From positions 1 through 32,024 of IMG/VR virus record IMGVR_UViG_3300022752_000252: a stretch of 32,024 bases of DNA, one strand, 5' to 3'. Numbering within the stretch: position 1 is the stretch's first letter; the number at the start of each line of letters is the position of its first letter. Of this stretch, positions 15,987-29,223 are shown in pieces. A model generated the notes under the pieces. The model saw only the letters and a list, made by a program, of their open reading frames with translations. It was not told the origin of the DNA and searched no databases. The position numbers and the translations under genes were made by a program. The DNA comes from a virus.

Positions 15987-17306
15987 ATGTTTATTTTAGT
16001 TATCGACCCAGATTTTTTATCTTTAGACTGGTGTTTAAGGTGCACCGCATATGGCCATACAGTTAAGGTATATTCAAAAGGATCTAGGTCGTCACACATA
16101 GGATCAGGATTGGTCGACAAGGTCAGTAACTGGAAACCTTACATGAAGGTTGCTGACCTTATAATGGTTGCGGACAATCTGGAATTCATGGATGAAATTG
16201 ATGAATATATCAAAAAAGGATATCCAATTTTTGGTCCAGGAAAACGTGCCGCAAAATTAGAAATTGACCGTATGTATGGTCAAAAACTTATTTCTGACAT
16301 TAGTGATGCAGCAATACCTTCAGTTGAATTTAAAAATTATGATGATGCCATTCGATACGTCAAAGAAAATCCAGGTCGTTATTGCAGCAAACCATCAACA
16401 GAAGAAGCTGATAAAACATTAACTTTTGTTTCGAAAGACGAAGCTGACTTGATAGGATTCTTAACAAAAAGAAAAGAACAAGGTAAGAAAGCTGACAAAT
16501 TCATTTTACAAGAATTTAAAAAAGGCACAGAATTTGCTGTCACTGGAATATTTGGACCAGGAGGTTGGTCCAAAATATGGTTTGAAGGGTTTGAGCACAA
16601 AAAACTTATGGACGGAGAATTAGGTCCAGCAACAGGCGAAACTGGAACTGTTGTTTACGCAACAGAAGAATCAAAATTAGCTGACATATTACTCAAACCA
16701 TTAGAAAAAGTATTACACGAAATTCAATACTGTGGTTTTTTAGATGTTAACTGTATGGTCGATGAAAAAAATGGTACTCCCTATTTTCTCGAATTCACGG
16801 CTCGTGCGGGTTACCCAATGTGGAGCATCATCACTTCATTGATAACAAATGAAGATCCGGCGCAATGGTTTTTAGATGTAGTTCAAGGTAAAGACACACT
16901 TGAAGCTCAAGTTGGCAAAGTATCCACAGGTGTTGTAATTTTCAACTCTGACTTTCCCTGGAATAAAAAAGAAGAAGAATCATATTTGGATTTTCCAATT
17001 TTCATAGATGATATTAATGTGAGTGACTTACACCCAGCCGAAGTTAAATTGACCAAAACAATGAAGATGGTTAACGGAGAATTAGATGAAAATTGTTTTG
17101 AGTGGGGTACAGCAGGATCATTCTTAGTTGTTTGTACAGGCGTAGGTGATACAGTAAAAGAATCAAAAGAAAAAGCTTATAAAATCGTAAAGAAAGTTAA
17201 AGTTGGTAACGATTCGGGTTATAGATTGGATATTGGAGATAAGTGTGAAAAATTCTTGAAAGAATTACACAAATTCGGATATGCTAAGAAGTTAAAATTC
17301 GAATAA
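15987..17306 (+). CDS. ATP-grasp ligase, PurD-like
   Basis: The 439-aa length matches phosphoribosylamine-glycine ligase (PurD). The middle follows the PurD plan: FGPGKRAAKLEIDR (about residues 84-97) before the ATP-grasp domain, KFILQEFKKGTEFAVTG (about 170-185), and metal/ATP residues in YFLEFTARAGYP (about 268-279). The N-terminus lacks the usual GxGGREHA motif and begins FILVIDPDFLSLDW, so substrate choice may differ. If it is PurD it would boost purine synthesis during infection. AGGA at 15977 sets the start. Confidence 0.75.
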   Translation: MFILVIDPDFLSLDWCLRCTAYGHTVKVYSKGSRSSHIGSGLVDKVSNWKPYMKVADLIMVADNLEFMDEIDEYIKKGYPIFGPGKRAAKLEIDRMYGQKLISDISDAAIPSVEFKNYDDAIRYVKENPGRYCSKPSTEEADKTLTFVSKDEADLIGFLTKRKEQGKKADKFILQEFKKGTEFAVTGIFGPGGWSKIWFEGFEHKKLMDGELGPATGETGTVVYATEESKLADILLKPLEKVLHEIQYCGFLDVNCMVDEKNGTPYFLEFTARAGYPMWSIITSLITNEDPAQWFLDVVQGKDTLEAQVGKVSTGVVIFNSDFPWNKKEEESYLDFPIFIDDINVSDLHPAEVKLTKTMKMVNGELDENCFEWGTAGSFLVVCTGVGDTVKESKEKAYKIVKKVKVGNDSGYRLDIGDKCEKFLKELHKFGYAKKLKFE

Positions 17307-22041: not shown

Positions 22042-22695
22042 ATGTTTAATTATTGCCCACCTGAAGAATTACAAGACCTAAGATCAACAACATTTCCTGA
22101 CGGTAAACGGTACTATCAACTTCTTGATGGTACCAGATTACCTTCTGTTACTACAATCTTAGGTGCAATGAAGAAAGAAGCCATCATGGCATGGCGCAAA
22201 CGTGTTGGTGAGGAAGTCGCCAATGCAATCTCCAAGAAGGCTACAGGTCGTGGTACTAATGTACACACACTTTGCGAGAGATATTTGAATAATGATGAAT
22301 TGGGTGATATTATGCCCGATGCAAAAGAAATGTTCTTTTCGATCAAACCTTTATTGAACAGAATCAATAATATCTGGTATCAAGAACAAGCACTTTATTC
22401 AAAGAAATTAGGTGCTGCAGGTCGTTGTGATTGTATTGCAGAATTTGATGGTAAACTTTCTATCATTGACTTCAAGACATCCAAAAAAATCAAGTCTAAA
22501 GACGACATCCAAGATTATTTTTGGCAATGTTGTGCGTATAGTCTGATGCTTGAGGAAATGATTGGACGGTCTGTGGACCAACTGGTGATCATTATGGCAG
22601 TTGAGGATGAAAGTCCTTTACTATTCATTGAGAAGACAGAAGATCATATTGAAGGACTCGTAAAAGCCATCGAGTTCTATAAAAACAATAAATAA
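22042..22695 (+). CDS. RecB-like PD-(D/E)XK exonuclease
   Basis: Motifs in order: LPSVTTIL (residues 33-40), GRGTNVHTLCE (His in a RecB-type helix, about 69-79), GRCDCIAEFDGKLSIIDFKTSK (the Asp and Asp-x-Lys of the catalytic core; about 127-148), and a QCCAYSLM helix (Gln in the QxxxY position). This is the single-domain RecB/Cas4-like nuclease of phages. It probably degrades or processes DNA in recombination or host-DNA breakdown. Confidence 0.8.
   Translation: MFNYCPPEELQDLRSTTFPDGKRYYQLLDGTRLPSVTTILGAMKKEAIMAWRKRVGEEVANAISKKATGRGTNVHTLCERYLNNDELGDIMPDAKEMFFSIKPLLNRINNIWYQEQALYSKKLGAAGRCDCIAEFDGKLSIIDFKTSKKIKSKDDIQDYFWQCCAYSLMLEEMIGRSVDQLVIIMAVEDESPLLFIEKTEDHIEGLVKAIEFYKNNK
22687..22694 (+). 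promoter_or_regulatory. candidate late promoter (NATAAATA)
   Basis: AATAAATA, overlapping the stop of the nuclease gene, lies just before a sigma70-type promoter and 62 bases before the holin candidate. As at 15944 the match overlaps a stop codon and may be chance. Confidence 0.35.
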
Positions 22696-22699
22696 AATA

Positions 22700-22728
22700 T
22701 TGACATTGAATTTTTTTCGTGTTAATAT
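22700..22728 (+). promoter_or_regulatory. sigma70-type promoter
   Basis: TTGACA (22700-22705), 17 bases, TAATAT (22723-22728). It precedes the holin candidate and the tmRNA gene, which has no other clear promoter. Confidence 0.7.
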
Positions 22729-22756: not shown

Positions 22757-22999
22757 ATGGCAACTCAAAACGAAGTTAAAACTGCACTAACAGCAGCAAC
22801 CGCAGATGCGTTAATCAACGAAACTGTTGGTAAAAAATTCTATGAGTCTAAGACATTTTGGACAAACATTATTGCAGCGACAGCCTTAATCGCTCAAATT
22901 AAATTCGGTTTTATTTTTGATGCTGAAGTTCAAGCTCTTATGCTTACAGGCATCAATTTAGTACTACGTAAGATTACAAAAGATCCAGTTACCTGGTAA
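22757..22999 (+). CDS. holin candidate (80 aa)
   Basis: AGAGGTAA precedes ATG 22757. After an N-terminal polar part, residues 26-80 (FYESKTFWTNIIAATALIAQ, then FGFIFDAEVQALML, INLVLRKITKDPVTW) follow the pattern of small phage proteins thought to be holins. One or two hydrophobic segments are present. The cell-wall hydrolase lies about 320 bases downstream, with the tmRNA gene between, which supports a lysis role. Confidence 0.6.
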   Translation: MATQNEVKTALTAATADALINETVGKKFYESKTFWTNIIAATALIAQIKFGFIFDAEVQALMLTGINLVLRKITKDPVTW

Positions 23000-23065
23000 T
23001 TATTGCTGTACGAAGCCGAGAGAAAAGTGTTCTGGACGGGGGTGCGAATCCCCCCACCTCCACCA

Positions 23066-23129
23066 GAAGCATATTGTTGCAGACCCTAACGAAGGCACTC
23101 GATTAAATCGAGAACAGTATGCTTCTGAT
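23066..23129 (+). other. tmRNA intervening segment
   Basis: The 64 bases between CCA and the mature 5' G fold into an outer stem (GAAGCATA 23066-23073 with TATGCTTC 23118-23125) and an inner hairpin (CTCGAT 23098-23103 with ATCGAG 23107-23112). It should be cut out by RNase P and 3' processing nucleases, leaving two pieces. Confidence 0.75.
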
Positions 23130-23215
23130 GGGGGTGCATAGTTTCGACAGGGCAAAGAGTATCAACGTGGACAGCACGGTAGGCGATGACCGTAAATCAA
23201 GCAAAAAAAGTAAAA

Positions 23216-23248
23216 GCAAACGATGAACGCTTTTTGATGGCAGCGTAA
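23216..23248 (+). other. tmRNA tag ORF (ANDERFLMAA)
   Basis: From resume codon GCA (23216) to TAA (23246-23248) it reads ANDERFLMAA. With the alanine carried by the tmRNA the tag would be AANDERFLMAA. The Ala-Ala end is the usual ClpXP signal; Leu-Met before it replaces the common Ala-Leu. Confidence 0.85.
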
Positions 23249-23319
23249 GCACCCATCTGAGTTTTGCTAGTTGAACTCGAAACAGAATCAACTAGCCCCC
23301 TAAAAAAAAAGGAGAACCA

Positions 23320-23823
23320 ATGTTTAAATCAACACTTAAATCATTGATAATCGTCGCATTATCATTTTCAATTCTTTTTATTTTACAAAAAGAATATGCC
23401 GTAAAACAAACGGTAGATCAAATTAAAGAGTCCTACACAAAACAAATAAATTGTTTGGCTAAGAATATCTACTATGAAGCTGCTACAGAACCTTATGAGG
23501 GCAAATTGGCAGTTGCACAAGTCACAATCAATAGAACAAATCATCCTGCATATCCAGGAGATGTATGTGATGTGGTATATCAAAAGACAGGAGAAACATG
23601 CCAGTTTACATGGACATGCGAAAACGTATCAAAAATCAAAGACAAGTATATATGGGAAGAATGTTTAATTATTGCAAAGAAAGCAATTGTTGAACCGAAA
23701 GTACATGATGAGATTGCGGAAAAAGGAGTTCTTTTTTACCATGCTGTATATGTAAATCCGGAATGGAAAAATATGAGAATGGTAAAGAAGATCGGTAACC
23801 ACATATTCTATAGAAAAGTATGA
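23320..23823 (+). CDS. SleB-type cell-wall hydrolase with N-terminal membrane segment (endolysin)
   Basis: SD GGAGAA precedes ATG 23320. Residues 7-22 are a hydrophobic segment behind a basic start, so it is probably a secreted or signal-anchor (SAR-type) endolysin. The hydrolase part begins at about residue 43 with CLAKNIYYEAATEPYEGKLA (catalytic Glu in YYEA), followed by VAQVTINR and QFTWTC, the SleB/CwlJ (Hydrolase_2) pattern. It cuts peptidoglycan glycan strands by family analogy. No Rz/Rz1 pair was recognised. The stop overlaps the next ATG. Confidence 0.8.
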   Translation: MFKSTLKSLIIVALSFSILFILQKEYAVKQTVDQIKESYTKQINCLAKNIYYEAATEPYEGKLAVAQVTINRTNHPAYPGDVCDVVYQKTGETCQFTWTCENVSKIKDKYIWEECLIIAKKAIVEPKVHDEIAEKGVLFYHAVYVNPEWKNMRMVKKIGNHIFYRKV

Positions 23824-24002: not shown

Positions 24003-24198
24003 ATTTAGTGAAATGATTGAAGTACTTGCTGATCAATTGCACCTATCAAAAATGGATGCAATTGTTCATCATTGTGAAACTGTAGGTATGGAAATCGATC
24101 TTGCATCAACTCTTGTTTCACCTGCACTCAAAGCTGCTATTCGTGAAGAAGCTCAAGAATTAAATCTACTCAAGAAAAATTCTAAATTGCCAATATGA
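23977..24198 (+). CDS. 33: late-promoter transcription accessory protein gp33
   Basis: ATG 23977 gives MPTKTEITEFSEMIEVLA. The order ITEFSEMIE, ADQLHLSKMDAIVHHCE, EIDLASTLVSPALKAAIREEAQELNLLK (shortened here) and a C-terminal KLPI is characteristic of gp33 in T4-like phages outside the T-even group. gp33 links RNA polymerase to the gp45 clamp at late promoters. Its position before gp59 and gp32 matches T4 gene order. Confidence 0.88.
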   Translation: MPTKTEITEFSEMIEVLADQLHLSKMDAIVHHCETVGMEIDLASTLVSPALKAAIREEAQELNLLKKNSKLPI

Positions 24199-24812
24199 GT
24201 TTTGCTTTTGAAGAAGCCTCTGGTTTCTCGGCATTTGCTTTGTTCAATGGTGTGAAATTACACTTCACATCAAATTATGATTTCTTTAAGTATGGTGGTA
24301 AAACACACATCACTAAAGAAAACTTCATGCAGAACAAATCAAAGTATACTTTTTACAGACTCTCTAGGAAATATTCTCTAGATGATCTTAAAAATTTCTA
24401 CGTTTCCAATTTTGTCGAAAAAGATGTCAACTGGGTCGGCGAAATTGCAAATGCAGAAGGTGAAGATGTCTTTAAAGAATGGCAAAAAAGAACACAAAGA
24501 TTGACATATCAATTTGAACAAGATATCATTCAACTCATGGATGAAGGAAACAATCCAGAAGAATTGCTCAGAGTTAAAAGTGGACAACATCCATTGTTAC
24601 TTATACACTCGATGCAGAGAAAAATTTGTATCGAAACACTTGTCATTATGAACGATATATTGAATTTCTTTCCGATGTGGTCCAAAAAAATTGAAGACAC
24701 TATTATTTGGCCATCATATCAAAAGAAATGTGAAAAATATTTACCATTTTTAAATTACGATAAAGTGAAGTTTAAAAATATATTGAAGGAAAGTTTAAAA
24801 GAATATGCCTAA
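24195..24812 (+). CDS. 59: gp59-type helicase loader
   Basis: ATG 24195 overlaps the gp33 stop. Length (205 aa) and layout match T4 gp59 (217 aa): an N-terminal FNGVKLHFTSNYDFFKYGGK, a SKYTFYRLSRKY segment, and a helical C-terminal part. gp59 loads the gp41 helicase on forked DNA covered by gp32. The neighbours gp33 and gp32 support the assignment. Confidence 0.85.
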   Translation: MSFAFEEASGFSAFALFNGVKLHFTSNYDFFKYGGKTHITKENFMQNKSKYTFYRLSRKYSLDDLKNFYVSNFVEKDVNWVGEIANAEGEDVFKEWQKRTQRLTYQFEQDIIQLMDEGNNPEELLRVKSGQHPLLLIHSMQRKICIETLVIMNDILNFFPMWSKKIEDTIIWPSYQKKCEKYLPFLNYDKVKFKNILKESLKEYA

Positions 24813-25385: not shown

Positions 25386-26270
25386 ATGGTAGATTTTTCT
25401 AAACTCAAAAAGCAGTCTGGTAATCTAGACAAGCTATCTAAAGCCATCGAGGCACTCAATTCTTCTTCAGAATCCGTTTCAGACAAAGATATGTTCTGGA
25501 AGTGCGAGACAGATAAATCAGGTAATGGCTTGGCTGTTATTCGTTTTCTTCCTGCACCACCACAAGACGGCGAAGATGGTCTTCCTTGGGTCAAAGTGTT
25601 CTCTCATGGATTTCAAGGTCCAGGTGGATGGCTCATTGACAATTGTTTGACCACTAAGAATCAGCAATGTCCTGTATGTGAACACAATTCACAATTGTGG
25701 AATTCTGGTATCGAAGCAAATAAAGAAGTTGTACGTAAACAAAAGCGTAAGCTCAATTACATTACAAACATTTACATTGTTTCTGATCCAAAGCATCCAG
25801 AAAACGAGGGCAAAGTTATGCTCTTTAAATTTGGCAAGAAAATTTTCGACAAGATTACTGAGGCAATGAATCCTCAATTTGAAGATGAACAAGCAATCAA
25901 TCCATTTGATTTGTGGAAAGGTGCTAATTTCAAGTTGAAGATTCGTAAAGTTGAAGGCTATCAAAACTACGACAAGTCCGAATTTGAATCACAGTCTGCA
26001 TTGTCTAATGATGATGACGAACTTGAAAAGATTTGGAAGTCTGAACAGTCATTGACAGCAATGATTTCAGATAAAGAATTCAAATCATATGATGACTTGA
26101 AGGCTCGTTTGGATAAAGTTCTAGGCTTGAATGGTGAAGTTGCTCCTGTTAAAACAACAGTTGAACAGATGAAAGCTGCACCGAAGAAGCCAGTCGTTGA
26201 AGATGTTGATATTTCTTCCGATGAGGACGATGACTTAGCATATTTCTCGAAACTCGCCGAAGCTGAGTAA
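25386..26270 (+). CDS. 32: ssDNA-binding protein gp32
   Basis: MVDFSKLKKQSG opens with a basic LAST-like segment. The core contains WKCETDKSGNGLAVIRFLP, then a zinc-binding set (His in FSHGFQG and Cys in DNCL and CPVC, about residues 78-98), and KRKLNYITNIYIV. The C-terminal 30 residues are acidic (DVDISSDEDDDLAYF), the usual protein-interaction tail. Length (294 aa) is close to T4 gp32 (301). It coats ssDNA in replication and repair and interacts with gp59 by family knowledge. Confidence 0.92.
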   Translation: MVDFSKLKKQSGNLDKLSKAIEALNSSSESVSDKDMFWKCETDKSGNGLAVIRFLPAPPQDGEDGLPWVKVFSHGFQGPGGWLIDNCLTTKNQQCPVCEHNSQLWNSGIEANKEVVRKQKRKLNYITNIYIVSDPKHPENEGKVMLFKFGKKIFDKITEAMNPQFEDEQAINPFDLWKGANFKLKIRKVEGYQNYDKSEFESQSALSNDDDELEKIWKSEQSLTAMISDKEFKSYDDLKARLDKVLGLNGEVAPVKTTVEQMKAAPKKPVVEDVDISSDEDDDLAYFSKLAEAE

Positions 26271-27675: not shown

Positions 27676-29223
27676 TTATTGTTGTTGCTTTCTTAAATAT
27701 GGATTTCTATCATCAACTTCAGGTCGTACTACTGGTTGTTTTTGTTCTGGTTGAGATACGTTATGTGTTGTATTTGTTTGATTTATTGGAGGTTTACTCT
27801 TATTTAACTGTTCTTTAAGGTTTTGGTTTTCTTGAGAAATATTATCAATTCGCGAACCTGTTGATCCCGTCTGATTCTGCATCTCTAAAGCTAAACGTTC
27901 TTCTTCTAAAAACCTTTTTTTAACGTTTTGTTGAACTGCTTCGGTGCTCGATCCAAATTTAGTAGCTCTAATTTTGTATACATTAGATATTATTATTTTT
28001 GGATCAGAATTAATTCCACCAGCATCATCAATTGCTTGTTTGAATATGCCTAGAGCTCCGCTATATCCTGTTGTGCCATCTTTTTTCTTGAATTTACCAC
28101 CAGGACCATGTTGAACAACCGTACTAAAGAAAACGTCTTTAATAGCAGGCGATTGTTGTTCAACATCATAATCTGTTAACTTAAATAAATTTTTTGATGC
28201 AGGCTTAAATTGAGAATCTTCAATGAAATCATGTTGTAATTTTTCAAAGGAAGAACCTTTTTCAGCAGATATTTTTTTCCATTCATCAACAAAAGGTCCT
28301 TTATTTGAACCTGTATCGGCTGGGCCCGCAGATTTTAATCTAGAAACGATATCAGTTTCACCTTTAGATTCTGCAAATTTTAAAAATGCATCCATAGTTC
28401 CAACTTTAGCTGCTATTTGATATGTACCATAACTGGTTCCACCAGTTGAATCCCACCCAACCACAGCTCCTGAATTTTTTCTTCCTCCTGTTTCAAATTT
28501 TGAACTTAATTTTCCTAATTCAGGTGGTTTTACCGGTTCAGCTTTAGCTGGAGGTTTAGCTTCAGGTGGTTTTACCGGTTCAGCTTTAGCTGGAGGTTTA
28601 GCTTCAGGTGGTTTTACCGGTTCAGCTTTAGCTGGAGGTTTAGCTTCAGGTGGTTTAGCTGCTGGAGGTTTAGCTTCAGGTGGTTTTACCGGTTCAGCTT
28701 TAGCTGGAGGTTTAGCTTCAGGTGGTTTAGCTGCTGGAGGTTTAGCTGCTGGAGGTTTTACCGGTTCAGCTTTAGCTGGAGGTTTAGCTTCAGGTGGTTT
28801 AGCTTCAGGTGGTTTAGCTGCTGGAGGTTTAGCTTCAGGTGGTTTAGCTGCTGGAGGCTTTGTTGCTGGAGGTTTAGCTGCTGGAGGCTTTGCTTCGGGT
28901 GGTTTAGCTGCTGGAGGTTTAGCTTCTTTTGATGGTTTTTTAACAGGTACTTCTTTTTTGACCGGCTTTTTACGTAAAGTTAAGGCTTTAATTAACTCTC
29001 CGTGTCTTTTATCCTCTAGATTTTTTTGTTGTTTTTCTTGATTTTTTTCAAGTTCATCTTGTACTCTTTTATCTTGGTCAATCTGAACCATTAGTTTGTA
29101 AATTGCACCAAGAATCTCTTTCGATGAAGATTTTGTTCCGACCACGGATGAATCAACGGCTCCCATTTTTAACATGGAAGCCGTATTGTTCTTTGTTTTA
29201 TCCGATAGTTCTGCCTTAGCCAT
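27676..29223 (-). CDS. baseplate hub protein with lysozyme-like domain and Pro-rich repeat (515 aa)
   Basis: Residues 1-95 are helical and charged. Residues 100-234 are tandem KPP(A/E)A and KAEPVKPP repeats, probably a stiff extended linker. From about residue 235 a lysozyme-like domain follows: SSKFETGGRKNSGAVVGW and GGTSYGTYQIA, then a later VVQHGPGG. It has the putative catalytic Glu in FETGG and a Gly-Thr-Tyr-Gln-Ile segment familiar from tail-associated muramidases. The tail is Gln/Asn-rich. Encoded after gp26 and gp51, it probably acts in peptidoglycan penetration, similar in role to T4 gp5. Confidence 0.72.
   Translation of the reverse strand: MAKAELSDKTKNNTASMLKMGAVDSSVVGTKSSSKEILGAIYKLMVQIDQDKRVQDELEKNQEKQQKNLEDKRHGELIKALTLRKKPVKKEVPVKKPSKEAKPPAAKPPEAKPPAAKPPATKPPAAKPPEAKPPAAKPPEAKPPEAKPPAKAEPVKPPAAKPPAAKPPEAKPPAKAEPVKPPEAKPPAAKPPEAKPPAKAEPVKPPEAKPPAKAEPVKPPEAKPPAKAEPVKPPELGKLSSKFETGGRKNSGAVVGWDSTGGTSYGTYQIAAKVGTMDAFLKFAESKGETDIVSRLKSAGPADTGSNKGPFVDEWKKISAEKGSSFEKLQHDFIEDSQFKPASKNLFKLTDYDVEQQSPAIKDVFFSTVVQHGPGGKFKKKDGTTGYSGALGIFKQAIDDAGGINSDPKIIISNVYKIRATKFGSSTEAVQQNVKKRFLEEERLALEMQNQTGSTGSRIDNISQENQNLKEQLNKSKPPINQTNTTHNVSQPEQKQPVVRPEVDDRNPYLRKQQQ
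28520..28925 (-). repeat. tandem coding repeats (KPPEA / KAEPVKPP)
   Basis: At least three consecutive near-identical 42-bp units (14 aa: KPPAKAEPVKPPEA) lie between about 28520 and 28650, followed by interspersed 15-bp units coding KPPAA or KPPEA. KAEPVKPP occurs five times in all. Near-identity at DNA level suggests recent slippage or recombination. Confidence 0.85.

Follow-up and report, generated by a model that had tools for sequence, protein, structure and literature searches.

Two-piece tmRNAs encoded by circularly permuted genes have been published for the Methylophilales phage Melnitz (MZ577097) and the Pelagibacter phage Mosig (MT647606). The same report assigns 53 of the 133 distinct tmRNA structures of phages to the two-piece form and places the ssrA of Melnitz with the alphaproteobacteria; in its accessible part, the spacer between the two pieces is not described as coding (PMC9004378). 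Given the tmRNAs of Mosig and Melnitz, a phage-encoded permuted tmRNA is not new in itself, and the rarity implied by the initial annotation of the locus studied here finds no support. A 2025 tmRNA survey also describes a permuted tmRNA whose spacer harbors a tRNA-Ala gene, in the nominally archaeal genome GCA-2688965 sp002688965.2 (PMC11915505). What is new here is a phage-borne clade of beta type, together with its synteny, the evidence for selection on its RNA, and a spacer slot that holds nested genes in relatives.

The locus lies on a 32-kb linear IMG/VR virus contig, and the whole stretch that was analyzed (32,024 nucleotides) is called the window below. Its permuted two-piece tmRNA gene runs on the plus strand from 23004 to about 23300. 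It is highly likely that the product of this gene, a two-piece tmRNA of circularly permuted order, belongs to a beta-type clade borne by phages and rescues ribosomes together with the SmpB of the host; the RNA is structurally intact and very probably functional. The order of its parts, an acceptor piece with T-arm and CCA, then a spacer and then the coding piece, is that of permuted tmRNAs, and removal of the spacer is predicted. The parts are as follows.

23004–23065, plus strand: acceptor (tRNA-like 3′) piece; 5′ end approximate (start of the RF04321 match), 3′ end at the encoded ACCA
23038–23054, plus strand: T-arm GGGGG-TGCGAAT-CCCCC with a G at loop position 55, read from the sequence
23055–23065, plus strand: acceptor 3′ strand CACCTCC (23055–23061), then A and CCA, from sequence and covariation
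23066–23129, plus strand: intervening segment (spacer), 64 nt, non-coding; a long hairpin extending the acceptor stem, with the conserved TGAT end
23130–23136, plus strand: acceptor 5′ strand GGGGGTG, pair 3 being G.U (sequence, Rfam)
23137–23148, plus strand: D-loop CATAG followed by TTTCGAC, with A at position 18
23216–23248, plus strand: tag reading frame GCA...TAA, encoding ANDERFLMAA and the stop (ARAGORN)
23259–23296, plus strand: probable 3′ pseudoknot, GAGTT/AACTC with GCTAGTTG/CAACTAGC, from the sequence; the second helix recurs in relatives
23130–23303, plus strand: coding (mRNA-like) piece; 3′ end approximate (end of the beta_tmRNA match)

In an Rfam search of the window, the gene scored 133.2 bits with RF04321 (cut-off 47, E 3.5e-26) and 110.4 bits with the beta model RF01850 (cut-off 84), while the alpha model gave 68.2 bits, above its cut-off of 50, and the cyanobacterial model 40.4 bits, below its cut-off of 70. 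The best-fitting lineage model is beta, 42 bits ahead of alpha. ARAGORN called the gene tmRNA*, with the tag ANDERFLMAA, which ends in an AA of the ClpXP type. All seven acceptor pairs form, the sole G-U being pair 3; this G3.U70 is the alanyl-tRNA identity pair, and alanine acceptance is predicted. In the RF04321 alignment, TGCTG (23004–23008) is paired with CAGCA (23172–23176). For the acceptor-spacer region the folding energy is −51.3 kcal/mol, compared with a mean of −28.3 in shuffled sequences (z −6.2), and the whole gene is likewise far more stable than its shuffles (z −5.7).

Most of the initial annotation, according to which a T4-like phage here encodes a circularly permuted tmRNA made of two pieces, stands. 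Its coordinates were exact, with the acceptor piece reaching to 23065 and the coding piece starting at 23130; the 64-base spacer, the pairing of GGGGGTG with CACCTCC through one G-U and the clear tag frame were all found as described, and the architecture is supported by ARAGORN and RF04321. The carrier is borne out by the T4-type gene families around the tmRNA. The covariance-model search and the folding that it had suggested agree with it, with scores above cut-off for RF04321, beta and alpha and below it for the cyanobacterial model, and the permuted lineages that it listed (alpha, cyanobacterial, and betaproteobacterial) are correct. The T-arm was called intact, which is right for the stem but not for the loop, since this reads TGCGAAT, with G at position 55, instead of the usual TTCGA; the D-loop has the matching change, A rather than G at position 18. 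The U55 and G18 of the sampled cellular beta permuted sequences are absent, and the window tmRNA is filed here as beta-like rather than as a member of the cellular beta lineage.

The T4 core families in the window comprise gp59, gp32, a DNA end protector, the tail tube, and the baseplate hub. For gp32 and the exonuclease, cyanophages, pelagimyophages, and other Kyanoviridae are among the best cultured matches, at about 43–57% identity. The slot of the tmRNA is framed by the following features.

22042–22695, plus strand: PD-(D/E)XK exonuclease, upstream bound of the slot (phrog_298, 3.4e-71); the same neighbor in Mosig and Melnitz
22700–22728, plus strand: sigma-70-like promoter, TTGACA-17-TAATAT with TG before the −10 element (10 of 12; local chance level not exceeded)
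22757–22999, plus strand: 80-aa ORF with a hydrophobic stretch, its stop 4 nt before the tmRNA; no family match
23320–23823, plus strand: endolysin, Cell Wall Hydrolase (Hydrolase_2; Pfam PF07486, 1.4e-23; phrog_938)
24195–24812, plus strand: T4 gp59 helicase loader, downstream side of the slot (phrog_269, 3.6e-55; Pfam T4_Gp59)
25386–26270, plus strand: T4 gp32 single-strand DNA-binding protein (phrog_224, 2.1e-109; Pfam gp32)

Dozens of contigs have the tmRNA between the PD-(D/E)XK exonuclease and the endolysin, gp59, and gp32. When relatives were picked by gp32 alone, with the interval fully spanned, 31 of 38 contigs carried a tmRNA (25 found by ARAGORN and 6 more by Rfam); the other seven had none at the Rfam cut-off, so the tmRNA is not essential to the group. 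The ssrA genes of Mosig and of Melnitz lie in the same PD-(D/E)XK-gp59/gp32 interval, and the slot is therefore probably older than the split of these phage groups. Elsewhere in the window, an ATP-grasp protein resembling GARS (purD) is encoded at 15987–17306 (plus strand), upstream of the slot as in contigs L002 and L010, and a 515-aa protein with a long proline-rich KPPAAKPPE repeat at 27676–29223 (minus strand).

The place of the window tmRNA directly before the endolysin would suit an RNA that retags or destroys particular proteins, serving host amino-acid recycling or lysis timing rather than general ribosome rescue, and such a role has been proposed for Melnitz (PMC9004378). This is an unlikely account of the gene, as the sequence gives no choice of target and the gene adjoining the tmRNA varies among relatives while the wider slot is kept. 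Ribosome rescue is the preferred reading.

Strong selection at the RNA level is shown by the comparison of relatives. The finder script behind the counts covers GTTTCGAC types and demanded GGG and seven standard acceptor pairs, so that the evidence lies in the diversity of these pairs and not in the pairing itself: across 142 distinct phage sequences, pairs 4, 5, and 6 each take three or four forms with complementarity kept, and pair 3 is G.U in all 142. Positions 55 and 18, which are in contact at the elbow of canonical tRNA, were left unconstrained by the finder. They are U/G in 94 and G/A in 48 of the phage sequences, and U/G in 9 and G/A in 26 of 35 cellular ones. One or the other combination is thus present in 177 of 177 sequences, with no exception, many of these being related, so that 177 is not a number of independent events. 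The window has the form G55/A18. The change occurs with two or more kinds of T-loop (TGCGAAT and GGCAGTA types) and, because the two positions touch in the canonical elbow, it looks like a compensated tertiary contact. The helix of the 3′ pseudoknot has 67 distinct strand sequences in 97 relatives.

The tags are conserved as well. Among 137 phage sequences, 122 end in LAA and 115 start with AND; the window tag ends in MAA rather than LAA, as do 4 of the 137. This conservation bears on the proposal that the phage RNA is a decoy or inhibitor of host trans-translation, binding SmpB or stalled ribosomes and blunting tagging. The tag-less tmRNA of mycobacteriophage DS6A does inhibit endogenous tmRNA in E. 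coli (PMC11915505), and some phage tags are unusual. An inhibitor would have no need of a tag, however, and a tag frame with a degradation-type C-terminus is kept in nearly all of the phage sequences, which makes a decoy quite improbable here. As a separate observation, unusually long tag peptides are predicted in L085, L087, and L130 (26 aa), L063 and L095 (28 aa), and L059 (32 aa).

The 17-base motif GTTTCGACAGGGCAAAG is present in at least 120 IMG/VR stretches, and 114 of the 120 listed have the complete permuted architecture. Judged by its sequence, the window tmRNA is a member of this phage-borne beta-type clade, found in over 100 IMG/VR contigs. The genomes of 84,980 prokaryote species contain the motif 39 times, and one occurrence alone is a tmRNA. 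It lies on a 12.6-kb contig of the MAG UBP17_UBA6191 (L140/L172), the only cellular-genome contig with a phage-type tmRNA, which probably derives from a phage and was binned with this MAG. A blastn search of 50,697 phage records gave no relative of the tmRNA beyond a 30-nt match in cyanophage S-CAM1. Around position 108832 of the latter (HQ634177; L231 1430–1700) there is a tmRNA-like, probably permuted sequence that is unannotated in the GenBank record. Of 250 Burkholderiales genomes, 13 score above the permuted-model cut-off, 10 of them strongly, including one alpha-type sequence. One Burkholderiales genome (G253, L186) has a permuted tmRNA with a very short spacer and an odd tag, and a second, weaker match there may be a one-piece tmRNA. 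That the window gene is a host gene captured without function, a contaminant from the host, or the remnant of an integration site, as might be thought because tmRNA genes are common integration sites with fragments in prophages (general knowledge, also mentioned in PMC9004378), is already contradicted by the T4-like flanks with no integrase among the genes scanned, the same slot in dozens of contigs, the covariation in the acceptor stem and the single tmRNA occurrence of the motif in the species genomes, and its probability is negligible.

In an IQ-TREE analysis of 103 sequences and 129 columns, a short alignment in which the deeper order is unsure, the 66 thinned phage rows group on a single branch (91/94), with two Burkholderiales sequences as neighbors (87/85). 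FastTree nests the bacterial beta two-piece tmRNAs among the phages. A descent of the bacterial beta two-piece tmRNAs from phages, which the FastTree nesting would suggest, is on these 129 columns no more than one possible direction, as IQ-TREE puts most phages in a branch beside them. The initial annotation had also spoken of a donor lineage. As the simple reading, recent capture from a bacterium was rejected on the near-zero cellular matches and the fixed synteny: the locus is conserved in phages and the motif is almost absent from cellular genomes.

The most surprising result is the nested-gene slot of the relatives. Phage spacers measure 23–415 nt (median 86) and cellular beta and alpha spacers 5–58 nt (35 sequences). 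Of 130 distinct phage spacers, 120 are closed by an outer helix of 6 bp or longer, versus 4% of shuffles, and 101 of the 130 have the TGAT end. The spacer of the window is a non-coding member of the slot; coding was ruled out here, as it has no ORF with a ribosome-binding site. Many longer phage spacers are protein genes. The criteria for coding were pN/pS, length, and Pfam; an ORF ending at the conserved TGA was rejected as proof, as non-coding spacers likewise retain the TGAT end. Two pattern scans for a ribosome-binding site and ATG immediately after a CCA found 87 viral stretches. Together with earlier sets, a matching coding piece lies downstream in 48 of 59 distinct loci, and in 45 of these 48 complete loci, which form 24 families, the ORF takes up 80% or more of the spacer. 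The better-diverged families have a pN/pS of 0.10–0.55, near-identical families being uninformative. The value is 0.16 in a family of seven members of 122 aa (L090), acetyltransferase-like by eye only and without a Pfam match. One nested gene encodes a thioredoxin (Pfam 4e-21, L324), another matches the CxxCxxCC family (1.3e-6, L023), and some are membrane peptides of 22–25 aa. Nested-gene loci include L095/L119, L043/L055/L057/L127/L129, L318, L347, and Melnitz (L314), and some of the contigs are 250–364 kb long (L025, L318, L322, L323, L342).

The nested protein gene starts a few bases past the acceptor CCA, its stop is often a TGA directly before the acceptor 5′ strand, and its Shine-Dalgarno belongs to the outer helix, where it lies within the 5′ arm of the stem closing the spacer. 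This placement suggests that translation and tmRNA maturation should compete. One nested gene occurs with different T-arms, so that spacers seem to be exchanged as cassettes. Likewise, the spacer of L293 (5900–6290) is almost identical to that of the window, with paired changes in the inner hairpin, and the D-loop region there is strongly altered; spacers thus seem to move between tmRNA backbones. While the nested genes themselves are well supported, we infer beyond them, with about even confidence for and against, an exchangeable gene slot in which one transcript would yield either a protein or a ribosome-rescue RNA, folding and cutting on the one hand and translation on the other being mutually exclusive. 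The nested genes would be a new arrangement, in which the segment removed from a structural RNA contains a protein gene whose ribosome-binding site lies in the processing stem of that RNA. No report of protein genes nested in tmRNA spacers was found in the open-access literature searched.

Other insertions were also seen. In contigs L016 (2626–4020) and L046 (1834–3010), the full tmRNA is preceded, at a distance of about 1.2–1.4 kb, by a partial copy of the acceptor piece. The insert that separates the two carries an HNH-endonuclease-like gene (HHIIPKHMGG), which gives the impression of a tmRNA invaded by a homing element. The spacer of L072 contains a tRNA-Arg (ccg) according to ARAGORN, and T-arm-like sequences occur in the spacers of L017, L022, L048, L062, L065, L099, and L271.

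Of 125 loci, 60 have a sigma-70-like promoter of at least 11 of 12 in the 300 nt upstream, versus 6.8% of control stretches. Many of those in relatives end 5–8 nt before the acceptor piece, so that the transcription start may set the 5′ end of the RNA. The window match lies 271 nt upstream of the tmRNA, ahead of the 80-aa ORF, and promoter-like matches around the window tmRNA are no commoner than in shuffles. Neither the window nor any of 19 phage records of 100–364 kb gave an SmpB match, while ten of 14 control genomes did, and the RNA presumably works with host SmpB.

A single transcript would be made by the host RNA polymerase, in the window probably by read-through from the promoter that precedes the 80-aa ORF. 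Stacking of the spacer on the acceptor stem would give one long hairpin and, by analogy with the biology of permuted tmRNAs, host tRNA-maturation enzymes would cut at about 23065/23066 and 23129/23130, leaving two pieces held together by the acceptor and P2 helices. The CCA-ending piece would be charged by the host alanyl-tRNA synthetase via G3.U70. With host SmpB, the RNA could then enter ribosomes stalled on broken mRNAs, add ANDERFLMAA, and free the ribosome, the tagged protein being taken by host proteases such as ClpXP. The most likely benefit would be that ribosomes are kept in circulation during infection while host mRNA is degraded.

In uncultured T4-like phages the clade has stayed at a single locus; it is found on contigs of up to 364 kb and is almost absent from bacterial genomes. 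Two questions become testable: whether phages carry out the rescue of stalled ribosomes on their own behalf, and by what route permuted tmRNAs arose and spread.

Among the described systems, Melnitz and Mosig share with the window a two-piece tmRNA in a T4-like phage, at the same interval and with a similar 3′ pseudoknot motif. The tmRNA of Mosig matches the alpha model (67.6 bits), whereas that of the window fits beta, by 42 bits; in Melnitz, an ORF runs through the spacer without an annotated CDS. The cellular beta tmRNAs (RF01850) agree with the phage clade in piece order, tag type, and acceptor anatomy and, for most phage members, in the U55-type elbow, but their spacers are shorter and the phages stand on their own branch in IQ-TREE. 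The alpha tmRNAs (RF01849) have the G55/A18 elbow of the window, but their T-loop is GGCRGTA rather than TGCGAAT and the alpha score is only 68 bits. Finally, GCA-2688965 sp002688965.2 resembles the phage relatives in that the spacer of its permuted tmRNA encloses another gene, there a tRNA and in the phage relatives a protein gene, of 24 families.
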